Positions 55,568 through 64,000 of a DNA stretch of 64,000 nucleotides are shown piece by piece. Position numbers and translations under genes: made by a program. The notes beneath the pieces are model-generated. The model was not told the DNA's origin, ran no database searches, and worked only from the letters and a program-made list of their open reading frames with translations. Every line of letters starts with the position of its first letter. Position 1 is the first letter of the stretch. Origin of the DNA: Methylosinus trichosporium OB3b (GTDB lineage Bacteria; Pseudomonadota; Alphaproteobacteria; Rhizobiales; Beijerinckiaceae); contig NZ_CP023738.1 of assembly GCF_002752655.1 (NCBI RefSeq), positions 221,281-285,280 on the forward strand, given 5' to 3'.

Positions 55568-56371
55568 GGTTGTGTCGCAAATTTTGTCTACGGACGCGAC
55601 ACCGGCGTCTGAGAGTGACGCGGCTCACGCCACGAGGGCATAGAACTGCTGCGCTGGACGCAATTCGCCTGTCGTTCGCAGCTGCCCCTTGCGGATCATA
55701 TGCATGAGCTCGATCCCGGAAAGTGTCGCGGCAGCCGATCGAAATGATTTGAAACCCAACATCGGCCGCGTCACTCGCTTCACCGCTCGATGGTCCTGTT
55801 CGACAATATTGTTGAGATATTTGATGCGGCGGATTTCGATGTCCGCTTCATGCTCCGCATTGTAGCGTTCGATCGCGGCCGTGTTGGCGCCGCTCTTGTC
55901 GATCGTGATCTTCTCCGGCTCGCCATGCTGGCCGATCGCCTTGCGCAAGAAGCGCAACGCGGCTTTGCAGTCCCTCTTGGCCGTCAGCAGGAAATCCACC
56001 GTCCCGCCTGCCTTGTCGACCGCCCGATACAGATATTTCCAGCAGCCTTTGACTTTCACGTAGGTCTCATCGAGACGCCAGCTGGATCCGATCGAGCGCT
56101 TGCGAGTGTGGAACTGTTTCTCCAGCAAAGGAGCATACTTGACGACCCAGCGGTTGAGCGTCGAATGGTCGACTTCGACACCTCGCTCTTCCATCATTTC
56201 CTCGAGTTGACGATAGCTCATCGGATACGCCACATACCAGCGGACGCCCCACAGAATCACGTCGCGTTCAAAATGGCTGCCCTTGAAATCAATCATCGCA
56301 CTCGTCCGCCAGCTCCACTACCGGCAATTATAGCCCCAAACCGACCTGCGACAAAAATTCGCGACAGAACC
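55568..56371 (-). mobile_element. IS6-family insertion sequence, copy A
   Basis: An 804-base element whose ends are imperfect inverted repeats: GGTTGTGTCGCAAATTTT on the left and the complement of GGTTCTGTCGCGAATTTT on the right. It encodes one transposase. The 8-base flanks (CCACGCGT and AAAAATAT) do not match, so no target duplication is visible for this copy. It differs from copy B by only two bases that I can see, near 55,999 and near the right end. Confidence 0.9.
55625..56296 (-). CDS. IS6-family DDE transposase (copy A)
   Basis: A full transposase of 223 residues. The N-terminal HTH region (20-60: SYRQLEEMMEERGVEVDHST) is followed by the DDE core: D in RLDETYVKVKG (D76), D in ITIDKSGANT (D133) and E in IVEQDHRAVKR (E167). 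The sequence is intact and identical to that of copy B, so both may be active. IS6 elements move by replicative transposition and tend to form cointegrates and same-orientation pairs, as seen here. Confidence 0.95.
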   Translation of the reverse strand: MIDFKGSHFERDVILWGVRWYVAYPMSYRQLEEMMEERGVEVDHSTLNRWVVKYAPLLEKQFHTRKRSIGSSWRLDETYVKVKGCWKYLYRAVDKAGGTVDFLLTAKRDCKAALRFLRKAIGQHGEPEKITIDKSGANTAAIERYNAEHEADIEIRRIKYLNNIVEQDHRAVKRVTRPMLGFKSFRSAAATLSGIELMHMIRKGQLRTTGELRPAQQFYALVA

Positions 56372-56912: not shown

Positions 56913-57716
56913 GGTTGTGTCGCAAATTTTGTCTACGGACGCGACACCGGCGTCTGAGAGTGACGCGGCTCACGCCACGAGGGCATAGAACTGCTGCGCT
57001 GGACGCAATTCGCCTGTCGTTCGCAGCTGCCCCTTGCGGATCATATGCATGAGCTCGATCCCGGAAAGTGTCGCGGCAGCCGATCGAAATGATTTGAAAC
57101 CCAACATCGGCCGCGTCACTCGCTTCACCGCTCGATGGTCCTGTTCGACAATATTGTTGAGATATTTGATGCGGCGGATTTCGATGTCCGCTTCATGCTC
57201 CGCATTGTAGCGTTCGATCGCGGCCGTGTTGGCGCCGCTCTTGTCGATCGTGATCTTCTCCGGCTCGCCATGCTGGCCGATCGCCTTGCGCAAGAAGCGC
57301 AACGCGGCTTTGCAGTCCCTCTTGGCCGTCAGCAGGAAATCCACCGTCCCGCCCGCCTTGTCGACCGCCCGATACAGATATTTCCAGCAGCCTTTGACTT
57401 TCACGTAGGTCTCATCGAGACGCCAGCTGGATCCGATCGAGCGCTTGCGAGTGTGGAACTGTTTCTCCAGCAAAGGAGCATACTTGACGACCCAGCGGTT
57501 GAGCGTCGAATGGTCGACTTCGACACCTCGCTCTTCCATCATTTCCTCGAGTTGACGATAGCTCATCGGATACGCCACATACCAGCGGACGCCCCACAGA
57601 ATCACGTCGCGTTCAAAATGGCTGCCCTTGAAATCAATCATCGCACTCGTCCGCCAGCTCCACTGCCGGCAATTATAGCCCCAAACCGACCTGCGACAAA
57701 AATTCGCGACAGAACC
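56913..57716 (-). mobile_element. IS6-family insertion sequence, copy B
   Basis: A second 804-base copy in the same orientation as copy A, 541 bases away. Flanks CTGATCGG and TCGATGGC do not match each other or those of copy A, so the pair is not a simple recent composite insertion. It interrupts a histidine phosphatase on its left and an unknown gene on its right, so a deletion between them is likely. Confidence 0.9.
56970..57641 (-). CDS. IS6-family DDE transposase (copy B)
   Basis: Same 223-residue protein as copy A, with all three catalytic acids. The only coding difference seen between the two genes is silent (GCA/GCG in the DKAGG segment). This near-identity points to a very recent duplication or to gene conversion. 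Confidence 0.95.
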   Translation of the reverse strand: MIDFKGSHFERDVILWGVRWYVAYPMSYRQLEEMMEERGVEVDHSTLNRWVVKYAPLLEKQFHTRKRSIGSSWRLDETYVKVKGCWKYLYRAVDKAGGTVDFLLTAKRDCKAALRFLRKAIGQHGEPEKITIDKSGANTAAIERYNAEHEADIEIRRIKYLNNIVEQDHRAVKRVTRPMLGFKSFRSAAATLSGIELMHMIRKGQLRTTGELRPAQQFYALVA

Positions 57717-58755: not shown

Positions 58756-60351
58756 CTATCTTGCCGAAATCACTTTCCAGTCGAGCTCGAAGCGGGCCAA
58801 ATATTTTCGCAATCGATCGGCGTCATTGACGCTCGAGCGTTGCGCGCGCGAGGCCGAGAAGAGCGCGCGACCGGCGGCGCTGAGAGAGGAATGCGCGCGG
58901 CAGACCTGGGCCACGGCGGCGAGCTGGACACGATCGAAAAGATCGATCTCGGCGAGCGCCTCCTCGCTGAAGAAGTCACGCAGCAAGGTGTCCGGCCCCT
59001 CCGCGCCTCCGCGCGACCATGATTTCTCGAGCCGCGCGATCTCCTCGACGACGATCTCCTCCGTGATGCGCCGCGCCGGCGCCAAGGTCGCCATTCGCGT
59101 CACCGAGGCGCCGAGGTCGCGAAAATTTGCGCGCCAGCTCGCGCGGTCGGACCGCGCGAAAGCGAGATAGCGCTCGCGCGCCTCGCGATTGAAGGTCGCC
59201 CGAACGCCTTCGCGCTCGGCGAAGCGCACGAGCTCGAAATCGAGATTGGGCTCGATGTCCTCGCGTCGGTCCTTCAGCGCCGGCAGCTCGAAGGTCCAAA
59301 GATCGAGACGCGCGAGCAAATCCTCGCGGAATTTCCCTTTGGCGACGTCGACTGAAAGATCGCGATTCGTGCCGGCGATCAATTGAAAGTCGCTCATCGT
59401 CTCCTTGTCCGAACCGAGCGGCAAAAAGCGCTTCTCCTCTATGGCGCGTAGGATCACCGCCTGCTCGTCGAGACCCAGCTCGCCGATCTCATCCAAAAAG
59501 AGCATGCCGCCGTCCGCCTTGCGGAGCAGGCCCGGCCTCTCCGCGAGTGCTCCGGTAAAGGCGCCCTTGGCGTGGCCGAAGAGCGCCGACATCGCGCCGT
59601 CCCCCCGCAAAGTCGCGCAATTCACCTCGACAAAGGGGCCCTTGAGGCGATGGCGCATCTTCTTCAATTCATAGATGCGGCTCGCGAGCTGTGATTTTCC
59701 GGCGCCCGTCGGACCCATGAGCAGCAGCGGAGCCTTCGATAGCGCCGCTACTTGCTCGATGCGCTCGATCATTCGGTTGAACGCCTCGTTGCGCGTGGCG
59801 ATGCCCGATTTGAGGAAAGACGTCGCCTGCGCCTTCTCGGCAGCGAAGCGCGTGGCGATCTTATCGTATCGCGCGAGATCGAGATCGATGACGCCATAGG
59901 TCCCTGCGCCGCCTTCGCGCCAGCGCTTGGGCGGCGTCAGCTGCAAAATCTTCGCTGGAACATAATGTGCCTCGACGAGCAGAAACCAGCAGATCTGCGC
60001 GACATGCGTTCCCGTCGTGATGTTGACGAGATAGTCCTCCTTCTCAGTGTCGAAGGAATAGGCGTCGGCGAAGTCGCGCATGGCGCCATAGACCTCCTGG
60101 AAATCCCAAGGGTCGGTCAAATTCAAAATTCGCCTTTCAACCTTCGTCTCTGGCGAGACCTGCGCGATGTCGCGGGTGACGCGCTCCGCGAGCGCGGCGG
60201 CGTGATTGTCGTGAATGAGCTCCAGCCGGTTGACCAGAAAATCTTCGTGCTGGCAGAGCGCCACGGTCGGGCGCCAGCGCTCCCAGCGATTGTCCTTGCC
60301 GGCGTCCATCGTCGTGCCGAGAAAGCCCATGACCACTCGAGGCCGCGTCAT
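58756..60351 (-). CDS. rtcR: Sigma54-dependent activator of RNA repair, RtcR
   Basis: An enhancer-binding protein of 531 residues. The N-terminal ~175 residues match the RtcR/CARF-like sensor domain (VVMGFLGTTMDAGK, NITTGTHVAQICWF), which is thought to respond to RNA or nucleotide damage signals. The AAA+ domain has Walker A GPTGAGKS (213-220), the sigma54-contacting GAFTGA (263-268) and Walker B GGMLFLDEIG (281-290). The C-terminal part would hold the DNA-binding helix-turn-helix. ATG 60351 is chosen over a TTG at 60363. It is divergent from rsr across 189 bases that contain a sigma54 promoter facing rsr. Removal of the sensor domain makes E. coli RtcR constitutive, so it acts as a lock. Confidence 0.94.
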   Translation of the reverse strand: MTRPRVVMGFLGTTMDAGKDNRWERWRPTVALCQHEDFLVNRLELIHDNHAAALAERVTRDIAQVSPETKVERRILNLTDPWDFQEVYGAMRDFADAYSFDTEKEDYLVNITTGTHVAQICWFLLVEAHYVPAKILQLTPPKRWREGGAGTYGVIDLDLARYDKIATRFAAEKAQATSFLKSGIATRNEAFNRMIERIEQVAALSKAPLLLMGPTGAGKSQLASRIYELKKMRHRLKGPFVEVNCATLRGDGAMSALFGHAKGAFTGALAERPGLLRKADGGMLFLDEIGELGLDEQAVILRAIEEKRFLPLGSDKETMSDFQLIAGTNRDLSVDVAKGKFREDLLARLDLWTFELPALKDRREDIEPNLDFELVRFAEREGVRATFNREARERYLAFARSDRASWRANFRDLGASVTRMATLAPARRITEEIVVEEIARLEKSWSRGGAEGPDTLLRDFFSEEALAEIDLFDRVQLAAVAQVCRAHSSLSAAGRALFSASRAQRSSVNDADRLRKYLARFELDWKVISAR

Positions 60352-60489
60352 CTGTCTATCCAAAAAGATAAGATACGATACTTATAGCTCCCATAGATGG
60401 AAGCCGCAACGGCGCAGATCATCGTCGGTAGATTCTATTATCATGTAATACCAATATGTTAACATAACGGACCGCTGGCGCGGCCCCTC

Positions 60490-60505
60490 TGGCACGCTGG
60501 TCGCA
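60490..60505 (+). promoter_or_regulatory. Sigma54 (-24/-12) promoter of the RNA-repair operon
   Basis: TGGCACGCTGGTCGCA has the required GG and GC exactly ten bases apart and matches the consensus TGGCAC-N5-TTGCA except at one position of the -12 element. It is 36 bases before the rsr ATG and divergent from rtcR. The AT-rich stretch at about 60,410-60,460 upstream could hold RtcR-binding sites and bend the DNA. Confidence 0.88.
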
Positions 60506-60540: not shown

Positions 60541-62097
60541 ATGGCGAGCAAAACTCTGTTCGCGTCCATCGTCGGAAAGCTGCTTCCGCGAGCGAATGCC
60601 CGGAATGAAGCGGGCGGCCCCGCCTATGCGCGGACCCCGCGCCATAGACTCGCGCAGCTCGCCGCAACGGGAACGCTGAACCACACCTTCTACGCGGATG
60701 CGCAGAGTCAGCTCGACAATGCGCTGCTGACGGCGCTCGACGTCGATCCGGCCTTCGTCGCCAAGGCGGCCATTTATGCGCGTCAGAAAGGGCATATGAA
60801 GGACATGCCGGCCTTGCTCGTCGCGCTTTTGTCGACTCTGCAGACGGACGACTTTTCCAAGGCGTTCCGGCGCGTGATCGACAATGGCAAGATGCTGCGC
60901 AGCTTCGCGCAGATCATGCGTTCGGGCGCGGTGGGCCGCAAGTCGCTCGGCTCACGACCTAAGCGTCATATCGCCAATTGGCTCGAGGACGCGTCGGACA
61001 TCGAGATCATGCGCGCCGCGGTGGGTCAGGACCCATCTCTCGCGGATGTGATCAAAATGGTTCACCCGAAGCCGAGGTCGAAGGAGCGGGAGGCGCTCTA
61101 CGGCTATCTGATCGGACGGCCCTATAACGTCGCGGCGTTGCCGCAGGTCGTGCAGGAGCTCGAAGTGTTCAAGCGCGATCCGTCGCAGACGCCGCCGAAT
61201 GTGCCGTTCCAGATGCTGACCGCGCTTCCTCTCGACAAGGAGCATTGGGCGGCGATCGGCTCCAAGGCAGGCTGGCAGATGCTGCGCATGAACCTCAACA
61301 CTTTCGCTCGCCATGGCGCGTTCGATGTATCGTGGTTCCCGTGCAAGGCGGCCGAGCGGCTGCGTGACCGCAAAGAGATCGAGCGGGCGCGCGTGTTCCC
61401 TTATCAGCTGATGGCGGCTTACGCCGCCGCGGACGAAAAGGTTCCGCGCATAGTGCTGGACGCGTTGCAGGATGCGATGGAGATCGCGGTGTCGAATGTT
61501 CCGCGCGTGAAGGGGCGAGTGGTCGTCTGCCCGGATGTCTCCGGCTCGATGTCATCGCCCGTGACGGGCTATCGCAAGGGCGCGACGTCGAAGATTCGCT
61601 GCATCGACGTCGCCGGCCTGGTCGCGGCGGCGTTTCTGCGGAGCAATCGGCAGACGCGCGTGCTTCCATTCGACTTCGACGTGGTCGATGTGCGTCTGAA
61701 CGCGCGCGACAGCGTGATGACGAACGCGCAGAAGCTCGCTTCGATCGGCGGCGGCGGAACCAATTGCTCGGCGCCCCTGCGTAAGCTCGTCGCCGAGCGC
61801 GCCGAAGTCGACCTCGTGATCCTCGTCTCGGACAATGAGTCCTGGGTCGATGCGCGGCAGGGCGGGCGCGGAACGGCGACGATGGAGAGGTGGCAGGAGC
61901 TGAAGCGTCGAAACCCCGACGCCAAGCTCGTCTGCATCGACATTCAGCCCTACGCGACGACGCAGGCGGCGGAGCGCGACGACATTTTGAATGTCGGCGG
62001 CTTCTCCGACGCCGTGTTCGAGATGGTCGCGGCCTTCGCGAAGGGTGAGCTCGACGCGGAGCATTGGGTGGGCGAGATCGAGAAGATCGATCTTTAG
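60541..62097 (+). CDS. rsr: Ro60/TROVE ring protein (Rsr)
   Basis: The bacterial Ro autoantigen orthologue, 518 residues. The HEAT-repeat TROVE ring covers ~30-320, with YARTPRHRLAQLAATGTLNH at its start. The von Willebrand A domain (~325-510) contains the metal site DVSGSMSS (~334-341) and a later GGGGTNCSAPL. Ro rings bind Y RNAs on their outer face and misfolded or decaying RNA ends in the pore, often handing RNA to PNPase. ATG 60541 is preceded by AAGGA. Four Y-like RNA motifs begin ten bases after its stop, and rtcB follows, so this is an RNA-repair operon like that of Salmonella. Confidence 0.95.
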   Translation: MASKTLFASIVGKLLPRANARNEAGGPAYARTPRHRLAQLAATGTLNHTFYADAQSQLDNALLTALDVDPAFVAKAAIYARQKGHMKDMPALLVALLSTLQTDDFSKAFRRVIDNGKMLRSFAQIMRSGAVGRKSLGSRPKRHIANWLEDASDIEIMRAAVGQDPSLADVIKMVHPKPRSKEREALYGYLIGRPYNVAALPQVVQELEVFKRDPSQTPPNVPFQMLTALPLDKEHWAAIGSKAGWQMLRMNLNTFARHGAFDVSWFPCKAAERLRDRKEIERARVFPYQLMAAYAAADEKVPRIVLDALQDAMEIAVSNVPRVKGRVVVCPDVSGSMSSPVTGYRKGATSKIRCIDVAGLVAAAFLRSNRQTRVLPFDFDVVDVRLNARDSVMTNAQKLASIGGGGTNCSAPLRKLVAERAEVDLVILVSDNESWVDARQGGRGTATMERWQELKRRNPDAKLVCIDIQPYATTQAAERDDILNVGGFSDAVFEMVAAFAKGELDAEHWVGEIEKIDL

Positions 62098-62106
62098 GAG
62101 CAAACA

Positions 62107-62194
62107 GGGCCATGGCGAATGCGGTCGGGAGTACATTGCCTGTCACGCAAACCGCCTCCCGACGATCGGCGCGAGCCTCTCGTCGCCATGGCCC
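62107..62194 (+). ncRNA. Y-RNA-like hairpin 1
   Basis: GGGCCATGGCGA (62,107-62,118) pairs perfectly with TCGCCATGGCCC (62,183-62,194), enclosing the repeated core CGAATGC...GGGAGTACAT. That core occurs four times between rsr and rtcB. An inner stem of GTCGGGAG with CTCCCGAC (62,157-62,164) is possible. It has no tRNA-like part. Its position and the shared core suggest a Ro-binding RNA; a structured operon spacer is the alternative. Confidence 0.65.
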
Positions 62195-62208
62195 GCCTGA
62201 CGCGAACA

Positions 62209-62380
62209 GGTCGCGACGAATGCGGAACGAAACTACATCGCTTATGACGACCGGGTCGCGGGTTCGAATCCCGCCGGGCGCAAGCCCGTAGCTCAGTGGT
62301 AGAGCAGGGCTCGAGGAGCGCGGCGCGAGCTGCTTTCGCAAGAGCTATGTTTCGTTCAAATTTGTCGTCGCGGCCTTTTT
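62209..62380 (+). ncRNA. Y RNA with permuted tRNA-like module (YrlA-like)
   Basis: The base stem pairs GCGACGAA (62,213-62,220) with TTTGTCGTCGC (62,361-62,371), and GAACGAAAC (62,225-62,233) with GTTTCGTTC (62,349-62,357), and encloses the core motif. Inside is a tRNA mimic in permuted order: T arm GCGGG-TTCGAAT-CCCGC (62,258-62,274), a capped acceptor hairpin CGGGC-GCAA-GCCCG (62,275-62,288), then D arm GCTC-AGTGGTA-GAGC (62,291-62,305). Five T (62,376-62,380) follow the closing stem and may end or attenuate transcription. Bacterial YrlA RNAs are known to carry such tRNA mimics next to rsr; this is a clear member. Confidence 0.85.
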
Positions 62381-62407
62381 CCGACGAAAGAGAAGGAAAA
62401 CGCGAAA

Positions 62408-62523
62408 ACGTCATGGCGAATGCCGGCGGGAGTACATCCTCCATCCGGGCGCGGCGGCTGGAAACCGCCCCCGACTCACCGTTATCGGGAGCCCGCCTCT
62501 CGCCATTCTCGTCGCCATGGCGT
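62408..62523 (+). ncRNA. Y-RNA-like hairpin 3
   Basis: ACGTCATGGCGA (62,408-62,419) pairs with TCGCCATGGCGT (62,512-62,523) with one G.U pair, around the core CGAATGC...GGGAGTACAT. Both strands repeat hairpin 1 closely (CATGGCGAATGC on one side, CGCCTCTCG and TCGCCATGG on the other), so the two arose by duplication. It has no T or D arm. Confidence 0.65.
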
Positions 62524-62529
62524 CCAAAT

Positions 62530-62660
62530 GAAAATGCGGCGAATGCCTGTGGGACTACATTGGTAGAGCGCCCTTGACCGGGAGGTCGGCGGTTCGATCC
62601 CGCCCGCGCATCGTAAGGATGCGTCGAAGCTCATGTCCTGCGCCCTTTTGTCGCCGCGCC
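62530..62660 (+). ncRNA. Y RNA with a second, differently ordered tRNA-like module
   Basis: GCGGCGA (62,536-62,542) pairs with TCGCCGC (62,651-62,657) around the core CGAATGCC...GGGACTACAT. Inside, GGTAGAGC (a D-arm 3' half), a CCC-TTGACC-GGG hairpin, the T arm GGCGG-TTCGATC-CCGCC (62,588-62,604) and the capped stem CGCATC-GTAAG-GATGCG (62,607-62,623) follow in order. A later AAGCTC could pair with GAGC of the first element, closing a D stem. If so, the tRNA is opened at the D loop rather than at the anticodon side as in the 62,209 RNA. It ends 82 bases before rtcB. Confidence 0.7.
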
Positions 62661-62742: not shown

Positions 62743-63990
62743 ATGGGGACGAAAGCGGATCGCTCTTATGACCTTCTCAGCGAGGCCTTCGACGCCGCCA
62801 AGGGGAGCAAGGCGGCGCCGGTAAAAATGTGGACGCGCGGCGTGCCGGTGGACGAGGCCTCCAAGCAGCAGCTGCTCAACACCGCTGGCATGCCGTTCAT
62901 CTACAAATGGCTCGCGGTGATGCCCGACGTTCATTATGGCAAGGGCTCGACCATCGGCTCGGTGATTCCGACCAAGGGCGCGATCATTCCGGCGGCAGTC
63001 GGTGTCGATCTCGGCTGCGGCATGATGGCGGTTCGCACCTCGCTCGCGGCGTCGGATCTCCCCGACACGCTCGCGCCTCTGCGGGCAGCGTTGGAAAAGG
63101 CCGTGCCGCATGGGCGCACTTCGGGCCGAGACAAGGGCTCCTGGAGCGATTTGCCGGCGGCGACGGCCGAGGATTGGTCTGCGTTGGAAGCTGGATTCAC
63201 GCGCATCGTCGACAAGCATCCCAAGCTCGCCAAGGCCAACACCGCGAACCATCTCGGCACGCTCGGCACGGGCAATCATTTCATCGAGCTCTGTCTCGAT
63301 GAGGAGGATCGCGTGTGGCTCATGCTGCATTCGGGCTCGCGCGGTGTCGGCAACGCCATCGGCTCCTATTTCATCGAACGCGCCAGGGAGGACATGCGCC
63401 GCTACTTCATCGATATTCCCGACAAGGATCTCGCTTATCTGCCGGAAGGAACCGAAGGATTCGACGATTATGTCGAGGCCGTGGAATGGGCGCAATCTTT
63501 CGCCATGGCCAATCGCGAAGTGATGATGCGCCATGCGGTCGACGCCGCGCGCGAGGTGATCGCAAAGCCCTTCGAGGCGCATCTCGAGGCGGTGAACTGT
63601 CATCACAATTATGTCGCGCGTGAACATCACTTCGGCGAGAATGTGCTGATCACCCGCAAGGGCGCAGTGCGCGCGGCCGAGGGCGTGATGGGAATCATCC
63701 CCGGCTCCATGGGGGCGAAATCGTTCATCGTGCGCGGCAAGGGCAATGTGGAGAGCTTCTGCTCCTGCTCGCATGGCGCCGGACGCGTGATGTCGCGCAC
63801 CGAAGCCAAGCGTCGCTTCACGATCGAGGATCATGCGGCCGCGACGGCGGGCGTCGAATGCCGCAAGGACGCCGATGTGATCGACGAGACGCCGAAGGCT
63901 TACAAGGATATCGACGCCGTGATGGCGGCGCAGGCCGATCTCGTCGACATTGTCCATACTCTGCGTCAGCTCGTTTGCGTGAAAGGGTGA
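62743..63990 (+). CDS. rtcB: RNA-splicing ligase RtcB
   Basis: A GTP-dependent ligase of 415 residues that joins 2',3'-cyclic phosphate (or 3'-phosphate) to 5'-OH RNA ends. Metal and nucleotide residues are visible in PDVHYGKGSTIG, GVDLGCGM, TGNHFIEL and NCHHNYVAREHHFG. His344 in CSCSHGAGR is the residue guanylylated in the family. ATG 62743 follows AGGA with good spacing; ATG 62728 is a weaker alternative. With Ro60, the Y-like RNAs and RtcR it forms a damage-induced RNA repair system. An rtcA gene may follow beyond the window. Confidence 0.96.
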   Translation: MGTKADRSYDLLSEAFDAAKGSKAAPVKMWTRGVPVDEASKQQLLNTAGMPFIYKWLAVMPDVHYGKGSTIGSVIPTKGAIIPAAVGVDLGCGMMAVRTSLAASDLPDTLAPLRAALEKAVPHGRTSGRDKGSWSDLPAATAEDWSALEAGFTRIVDKHPKLAKANTANHLGTLGTGNHFIELCLDEEDRVWLMLHSGSRGVGNAIGSYFIERAREDMRRYFIDIPDKDLAYLPEGTEGFDDYVEAVEWAQSFAMANREVMMRHAVDAAREVIAKPFEAHLEAVNCHHNYVAREHHFGENVLITRKGAVRAAEGVMGIIPGSMGAKSFIVRGKGNVESFCSCSHGAGRVMSRTEAKRRFTIEDHAAATAGVECRKDADVIDETPKAYKDIDAVMAAQADLVDIVHTLRQLVCVKG

Positions 63991-64000
63991 GCGTGCCGAA

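Follow-up and report, generated by a model that had tools for sequence, protein, structure and literature searches.

Among the closest described systems is the RtcR-rsr-yrlBA-rtcBA RNA-repair operon, which has the same gene order and regulator as the locus analysed here; our locus holds four Y units. YrlA of Salmonella Typhimurium (Rfam RF02553) likewise lies between rsr and rtcB, has the same core and closing stem, and follows the order T arm, closed acceptor, D arm that we find in our unit 2. It differs in that its Rfam consensus has no anticodon arm, in that none of our units reaches its cut-off of 69 bits, and in the opening point of our unit 4. Circularly permuted tRNA genes share a rearranged tRNA order, and their products are mended into working tRNAs; in the units described here, in contrast, a loop within the Y RNA closes off the acceptor and leaves no free 3' CCA end. 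That bacterial Y RNAs mimic tRNA is already established (review PMC8394870), and so is the circular permutation of one bacterial Y RNA structure, 6CU1, which superposes on tRNA (ARTEMIS, PMC11472068). The excerpted text of PMC7790460 further describes YrlB and the Deinococcus Y RNA as Ro60 ligands with the shared stem, and RtcR as responding to 5' tRNA fragments that end in a cyclic phosphate. The literature searched, whose scope left the main 2014 paper outside, yielded no mention of D-loop opening, of anticodon turnover or of Y RNAs with a whole anticodon arm and natural loops.

We analysed a window of 64,000 nucleotides from Methylosinus trichosporium OB3b (the whole stretch of DNA under study; all positions refer to it). 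The regulator gene rtcR (58756-60363, minus strand) encodes a sigma-54 activator with an RtcR sensor domain (Pfam PF06956, 268 bits; PF00158, 164.8 bits) and diverges from rsr, the Ro60 orthologue (60541-62097, plus strand; vWA_Ro60, 65 bits; TROVE, 29.5 bits), which is followed by the RNA ligase gene rtcB (62743-63990, plus strand; PF01139, 442 bits). A candidate sigma-54-promoter-like site read from the sequence, TGGCACG-N4-TCGCA (60490-60505, plus strand), stands 35 bases 5' of the rsr ATG, and its -12 element has one mismatch to the consensus. Four Y-RNA-like units lie between rsr and rtcB, at 62107-62194, 62209-62375, 62408-62523 and 62535-62658, all on the plus strand, the first base of unit 1 being 10 bases past the end of rsr. 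The window (position 64000) stops exactly at the end of contig C2 (285,280 bases), right after rtcB, and rtcA is outside the view. The same 223-aa protein, transposase-like by eye, is encoded in two reading frames (55625-56296 and 56970-57641).

The four units share a handle built on the core CGAATGC-N(7-9)-STACAT, which occurs exactly four times in the window (62116, 62217, 62417 and 62540, always on the plus strand), compared with a mean of 0.01 and never four occurrences in shuffled versions of it. Each core is enclosed by its own closing stem: 12 perfect base pairs in unit 1 (62107-62118 with 62183-62194), 11 pairs read from the sequence in unit 2 (62209-62219 with 62365-62375), 12 positions paired at 92% in unit 3 (62408-62419 with 62512-62523) and 8 pairs in unit 4 (62535-62542 with 62651-62658). 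Against 200 shuffles, folding energies gave z-scores of -4.1, -3.8, -2.8 and -0.9 for units 1 to 4. To count units in relatives, we applied a fixed rule (a core enclosed by 6 bp or more of closing stem, no further than 1.5 kb 3' of rsr) to 67 loci; this count uses the strict core, so that variant cores, such as those of Acinetobacter, score zero. In the locus collection as a whole, L051-L053 and L063 duplicate other entries. At least one unit was present in 59 of the 67 loci, at least four in 32, and seven within 1.5 kb in two. In all, 215 cores with a closing stem fell 3' of rsr, against 4 inside rsr and 0 on the antisense strand of those stretches. In one relative (L054, Rsr 83% identical) all four units are kept in the same order, with identities of 74/86, 148/174, 109/119 and 109/121. 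Covariation of the closing stem was counted for relatives of units 4 and 3, and closing-stem support for units 1 and 2 consists of their conservation in L054.

Much of the initial annotation of this region held up under this comparison: its four cores start within a few bases of where it had placed them, each has its own closing stem, and Pfam confirmed the setting between rsr and rtcB with a divergent rtcR. Its view that all four units are Y-RNA-like gains support from the 59 loci, and covariation of closing stems in related genomes, which it had named as a check, was seen for units 3 and 4. Its proposal that four copies represent a special expansion of Ro ligands was not supported: since 32 loci hold four or more, four units are the normal state.

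To identify tRNA-like modules, we took 20 real tRNAs of the same genome, rotated them in silico and built two covariance models, R1 representing an opening at the D loop and R2 an opening at the anticodon loop; with both we searched 60 sources (566 kb). ARAGORN called no tRNA in the window as it stands. Unit 2 matched R2 at 58.4 bits and R1 at 36.6 bits, and reads as an entire tRNA in circularly permuted order, the opening falling between positions 28 and 29 of the anticodon stem, with all cloverleaf stems and a 7-nt anticodon loop. The stretch between core and T arm, UCG-CUUAUGA-CGA-CC-GGGUC, corresponds to tRNA positions 29-48: positions 29-31 lie at 62238-62240, the loop CUUAUGA at 62241-62247, positions 39-43 at 62248-62252 and the variable loop at 62253-62257. 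The T arm (62258-62274), the closed acceptor hairpin and the D arm (to 62305) follow, an order found in unit 2 only among the four, and the GG after the D arm (62307-62308) supplies positions 27-28. In the alignment to the Rfam YrlA model, the same anticodon stretch is an insert. Un-permuted, unit 2 was called by ARAGORN as tRNA-Ile(UAU), with its acceptor paired at 5 of the 7 positions tried. Single-sequence folding fails to predict its anticodon hairpin.

To remove search freedom from the comparison with relatives, we fixed all positions from the T arm alone in 93 anticodon-open units. All pairs between 29-31 and 39-41 formed in 35 of them: 27 of the 48 with a long gap after UAC, 1 of the 19 with a short gap and 7 of the 26 others. 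Counting identical arms once reduced these to 28 distinct arms, including that of the window; L055 and L056 have one extra base in the arm, do not pass at the fixed positions and are outside the 28. Position 33 was U in 25 of the 28 arms, position 37 a purine in 26, and the outer pairs 27-28:42-43 formed in all 28 as GG/CC, CG/CG, CC/GG or CU/AG; R2, the source of these units, includes the anticodon stem and positions 36-38, and unit selection therefore partly favoured the purine at 37 and the outer pairs, but not U33 or pairs 29-31. Eleven of the 28 loops were exact copies of anticodon loops among the 43 of the window's genome, as against 0.17 with shuffled letters; when triplets were re-dealt among units, 4.3 exact loops were expected and none of 5000 deals reached 11. 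Once un-permuted, with a script that placed the D arm by a score favouring common D stems, all 28 arms yielded ARAGORN tRNAs, and shuffled controls yielded none (0/560). We had at first placed the opening of these units inside the anticodon loop, an idea replaced by the 28/29 opening after the arm analysis.

Loci gathered later gave 18 further anticodon-open hits (two of them the same sequence), of which nine have the full arm and three carry exact loops; this set includes L110-L112 and L145 (the same genome as L107), which had been seen previously and are not blind. The 13 hits from loci new to the analysis contained six with the arm and three exact loops. Outer pairs 27-28:42-43 formed in 16 of the 18, also where the arm is absent, and re-dealing triplets within the nine later arms alone was not significant (396 of 5000 deals).

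These arms bear on the proposal, made for Salmonella YrlA and the Deinococcus Y RNA, that PNPase, or another RNA-decay or tRNA-modifying protein, grips these RNAs by their tRNA parts. The elbow formed by D and T loops would then be what matters, and the anticodon loop, an idle leftover without a job, would be free to drift. Both permutation classes retain the T-arm and D-arm motifs, the anticodon arm is absent in 18 of the 19 short-gap units, and the excerpted review describes YrlA as modified by DusA and TruB and tied to PNPase (PMC8394870), all of which agrees with such a grip. A leftover should lose its frame, yet U33 persists in nearly all distinct arms and whole natural loops in 11 of them, and hairpins presenting an anticodon loop alone also occur. 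We regard the grip as a possible but rather unlikely full account of the tRNA parts.

The frame and the triplet behave differently between close relatives. In 22 pairs of arms at least 90% alike elsewhere, drawn from 11 loci of few genera and therefore not independent, positions 34, 35 and 36 differ in 41%, 36% and 18% of pairs and position 38 in 18%, whereas positions 29-33, 37 and 39-41 differ in none; elsewhere in the RNA the difference is about 7%. Examples are CUGUUAA versus CUUUUAA in Undibacterium, and UUACGGA, UUAAGGA and UUUUGGA in Nannocystis. In the sequences compared, the anticodon is thus the fastest-changing part of the arm between near-identical relatives. Such fast change fits changing targets; it is also expected for an unused triplet in a fixed loop frame. 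The loops might instead be substrates or traps for a reader of U33-G34-U35, for example tRNA-guanine transglycosylase or nucleases sharing its specificity. Consistent with this, G34U35 occurs in 8 of the 28 discovery arms and 4 of the 9 later ones, against 4 among the window genome's 43 loops. The relatives behind these counts are not independent, however, and most loops carry other anticodons, for example Lys UUU, Arg ACG and the Gln UUG or Leu AAG types of Nannocystis, and we consider a reader of this kind improbable.

Unit 1 displays an anticodon-like hairpin without the rest of a tRNA. Its core (62116-62136) leads into an inner hairpin UUGC-CUGUCAC-GCAA (62136-62150) whose loop (62140-62146) is identical to the anticodon loop of this genome's tRNA-Asp(GUC); the counterpart in L054 reads UUGUGAU, within a unit otherwise conserved there. 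The simpler display end of YrlB and of the Deinococcus Y RNA resembles unit 1, which differs from the YrlB-like unit of L147 in that our scan found no 7-nt hairpin 3' of the core in the latter. Among 75 script-listed short units without a T arm, we found further exact copies of the 43 genome loops: Lys CUUUUAA (L032, L040), Glu CUUUCAC (L032), Gly CUUCCAA (L039, L046, L049, L112) and Ser CUUGAAA (L014); many of the 75 have no exact loop. In ten further loci in which all units were scanned, three exact loops occurred in 26 units (10 with a 7-nt hairpin) as against 0.03 in shuffles, one of the three (L145) having already been met as L107. A broader scan for any 7-nt hairpin 3' of the core gave 146 units against 92 in shuffles and 71-113 for other loop sizes, and was kept as a lead only, its input including false cores.

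Unit 4 is a tRNA opened at a different point. It matched R1 at 41.5 bits and R2 at 25.4 bits, and its tRNA part (62562-62636) comprises, after ...GGGACUACAUU, GGUAGAGC (3' half of the D arm; D stem half at 62566-62569), a short anticodon arm CCC-UUGACC-GGG (62571-62582), the variable loop AGGUC (62583-62587), the T arm (62588-62604), the closed acceptor hairpin (62606-62624) and finally GCUCA (5' half of the D arm; D stem half at 62629-62632). R1 also scores 31-41 bits on five ordinary linear tRNA genes; because linear tRNAs match too, an R1 score alone is no proof of the opening point. The D-loop opening of unit 4 follows from the better fit to the D-open model where no linear tRNA is called, together with the covariation of D-stem halves in its relatives. 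ARAGORN did not call unit 4 as a tRNA once un-permuted (0 of 75 rotations), and single-sequence folding misses its CCC/GGG arm, at an energy no better than shuffles.

We kept 19 D-open units from 18 of the 60 sources, which belong to Alpha-, Beta- and Gammaproteobacteria. They were hand-picked from the R1 and R2 tables, weak ones (e.g. L016) being left out, and R1-preferring linear tRNA genes (L014, L019, L023, L027, L035) were excluded. R1 was preferred by about 5 to 35 bits, the three best relatives scoring 59-64 bits with R1 and 27-29 with R2, and three Labrys units had no R2 hit. A MAFFT alignment of the 19 units (A3, from which three tRNA-Leu-like units of L014, L023 and L031 were excluded), folded without a given structure, recovered both handle stems and the D, anticodon and T stems, with the D-stem halves flanking the rest and two-sided changes in 26 of 30 pairs. 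Unit choice favoured tRNA stems; the handle stems (closing and second) are absent from the sorting tRNA model, and in them 93.5% of cells pair against 72.9% in shuffles, with 127 against 39.8 cells showing two-sided changes, and slid versions reaching 37-56% paired. Between the D-stem halves 98.7% of cells are paired, and two of the four pairs show two-sided changes. ARAGORN called 10 of the 19 as tRNAs once un-permuted and none as they stand; of 2358 shuffled rotations it called none. A loop of 3-4 nt, for example GCAA, UUCG or CUUG, caps the anticodon arm in 14 of 20 D-open units, and because the arms mostly end in this way the class offers no anticodon to cut. Later loci added six D-open units from 4 of 13 sources (two in L138, one each in L139 and L140, two in L145, which is the L107 genome met earlier).

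We also built a model from D-open Y RNAs (R3) and ran it over 385 genomes of the class; the tally of 283 was discarded as meaningless, because many of its 30-40-bit matches look like ordinary tRNAs. Besides the window and G026, the only clear new member was G240 (96.3 bits), whose locus we inspected. By eye, D-loop-opened mimics at L014:5870, L023:6228, L031:5770 and in L141 (3567, reverse strand) resemble class II tRNA-Leu. In a record labelled Salmonella phage whose DNA is probably bacterial (L147), a third Y-like unit (900-1040) follows a YrlB-like and a YrlA-like one and resembles a worn D-loop-opened tRNA. Ordinary linear tRNA genes stand among Y units at L014:5780-5854 (Lys) and L023:6045-6120 (Asn), a possible source of permuted copies.

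An alternative is that all these units are decayed tRNA genes without function, trapped between rsr and rtcB. Some versions do look degenerate (L016, L039:5667, L055:3562) and true tRNA genes lie inside two arrays, as decay would leave them; two-sided changes in both handle and tRNA stems, the preserved order of the four units, and the same permutations across several bacterial classes speak against it, and we consider this already disfavoured reading very improbable.

Unit 3 is a three-way junction shared by ten units (that of the window and nine relatives), with two-sided changes at 12 of 27 pairs. Its conserved hairpin loop motif GACTCACCGTTATC (62473-62486), of the form GACUCAYCGUUAUC, occurs at one place in the window's genome. 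The initial annotation had described two plain hairpins and two tRNA mimics, which does not describe units 1 and 3: the former carries a tRNA-Asp anticodon loop and the latter is this conserved junction. It had also overlooked that units 2 and 4, as read from their sequences, each rearrange a tRNA by a circular permutation of their own, unit 2 keeping its anticodon arm intact; its suggestion that different display ends serve different jobs fits what we found.

With the Rfam YrlA model, a check that annotation had also named, none of the four units reached the cut-off of 69 bits (unit 2, 49.9; unit 4, 27.5; unit 3, 21.1; unit 1 not listed). In the 18 loci bearing D-open units, Rfam called 11 YrlA units at the cut-off, all of them anticodon-open and none D-open, so that D-open units are probably missed in annotation. 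None of the units qualifies as a translating tRNA with a free 3' end and linear order, and in units 2 and 4 a loop closes the acceptor. Outside the two permutation classes, a further display class in which the T arm is followed by a CUUGCAGGCGCUCUCUGGCA-like sequence occurs at L058:3314, L059 (3472, reverse strand), L060:3479 and L061:3279. The Myxococcus phage Mx1 (L146, 54415-61061) encodes an Rsr 49% identical to that of the window; nearby are an annotated tRNA-Gly and a gene for peptidyl-tRNA hydrolase.

At the level of sequence, the comparison shows the common handle, both permutations, anticodon loops of 7 nt and the rapid change of these loops in close relatives, and we are very confident of the anatomy of units, handle and displays. 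The four units are, in all likelihood, Rsr ligands of the bacterial Y RNA kind, putatively made from the RtcR-controlled RNA-repair operon. They share the handle (a closing stem, an AUGC bulge and a second stem ending in UAC) and differ in the display module, which is a whole tRNA opened at 28/29 in unit 2, a D-loop-opened tRNA in unit 4, an anticodon-like stem-loop alone in unit 1 and the other conserved junction in unit 3. The explanation we prefer overall, with a probability of roughly 0.5, is that an RNA-repair operon here encodes tRNA baits or decoys held by Ro60. Rsr would hold the units out to proteins that grip tRNA, most likely ribonucleases that cut anticodons, so that real tRNAs are spared or the cut ends are sensed and resealed by RtcB from the same operon. 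The case for this explanation is carried by U33, the exact loops and the D-stem covariation; assigned by itself, a function as bait, decoy or sentinel is tentative. The authors of PMC7790460, in the excerpted text, suggest YrlA as a possible competitive inhibitor of an anticodon nuclease and also report that Salmonella YrlA is not itself cut by its anticodon nuclease, which counts against a bait.

The units could also act as sentinels and not as decoys, the cut bait yielding an RtcR-bound end that tunes the operon and RtcB resealing the bait. Their place in the same operon and the reported binding by RtcR of 5' tRNA fragments with a cyclic phosphate (PMC7790460, excerpt) suit this role. In permuted RNAs, however, the piece 5' of a cut would be Y-RNA sequence and no tRNA 5' half, and we hold sentinel action to be improbable.

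Returning to the preferred reading of Ro60-held baits or decoys, Y RNA arrays might form a changeable panel of whole-tRNA and anticodon baits, with Ro60 RNPs serving tRNA protection or sensing, an extension that we put forward as doubtful but possible. The Ro60 handle would stay fixed in such a panel, tRNAs would be re-inserted by different permutations and anticodons would be exchanged quickly, as toxins that cut tRNA and nucleases of phages drive an arms race. Finding tRNA permuted in two separate ways within one array would be an unusual example of RNA fold evolution. At stake is what bacterial Ro60 and its Y RNAs do, and the reason that they sit with an RNA ligase; if Y RNAs display intact, fast-changing anticodon arms, their link to tRNA damage would be directly testable.
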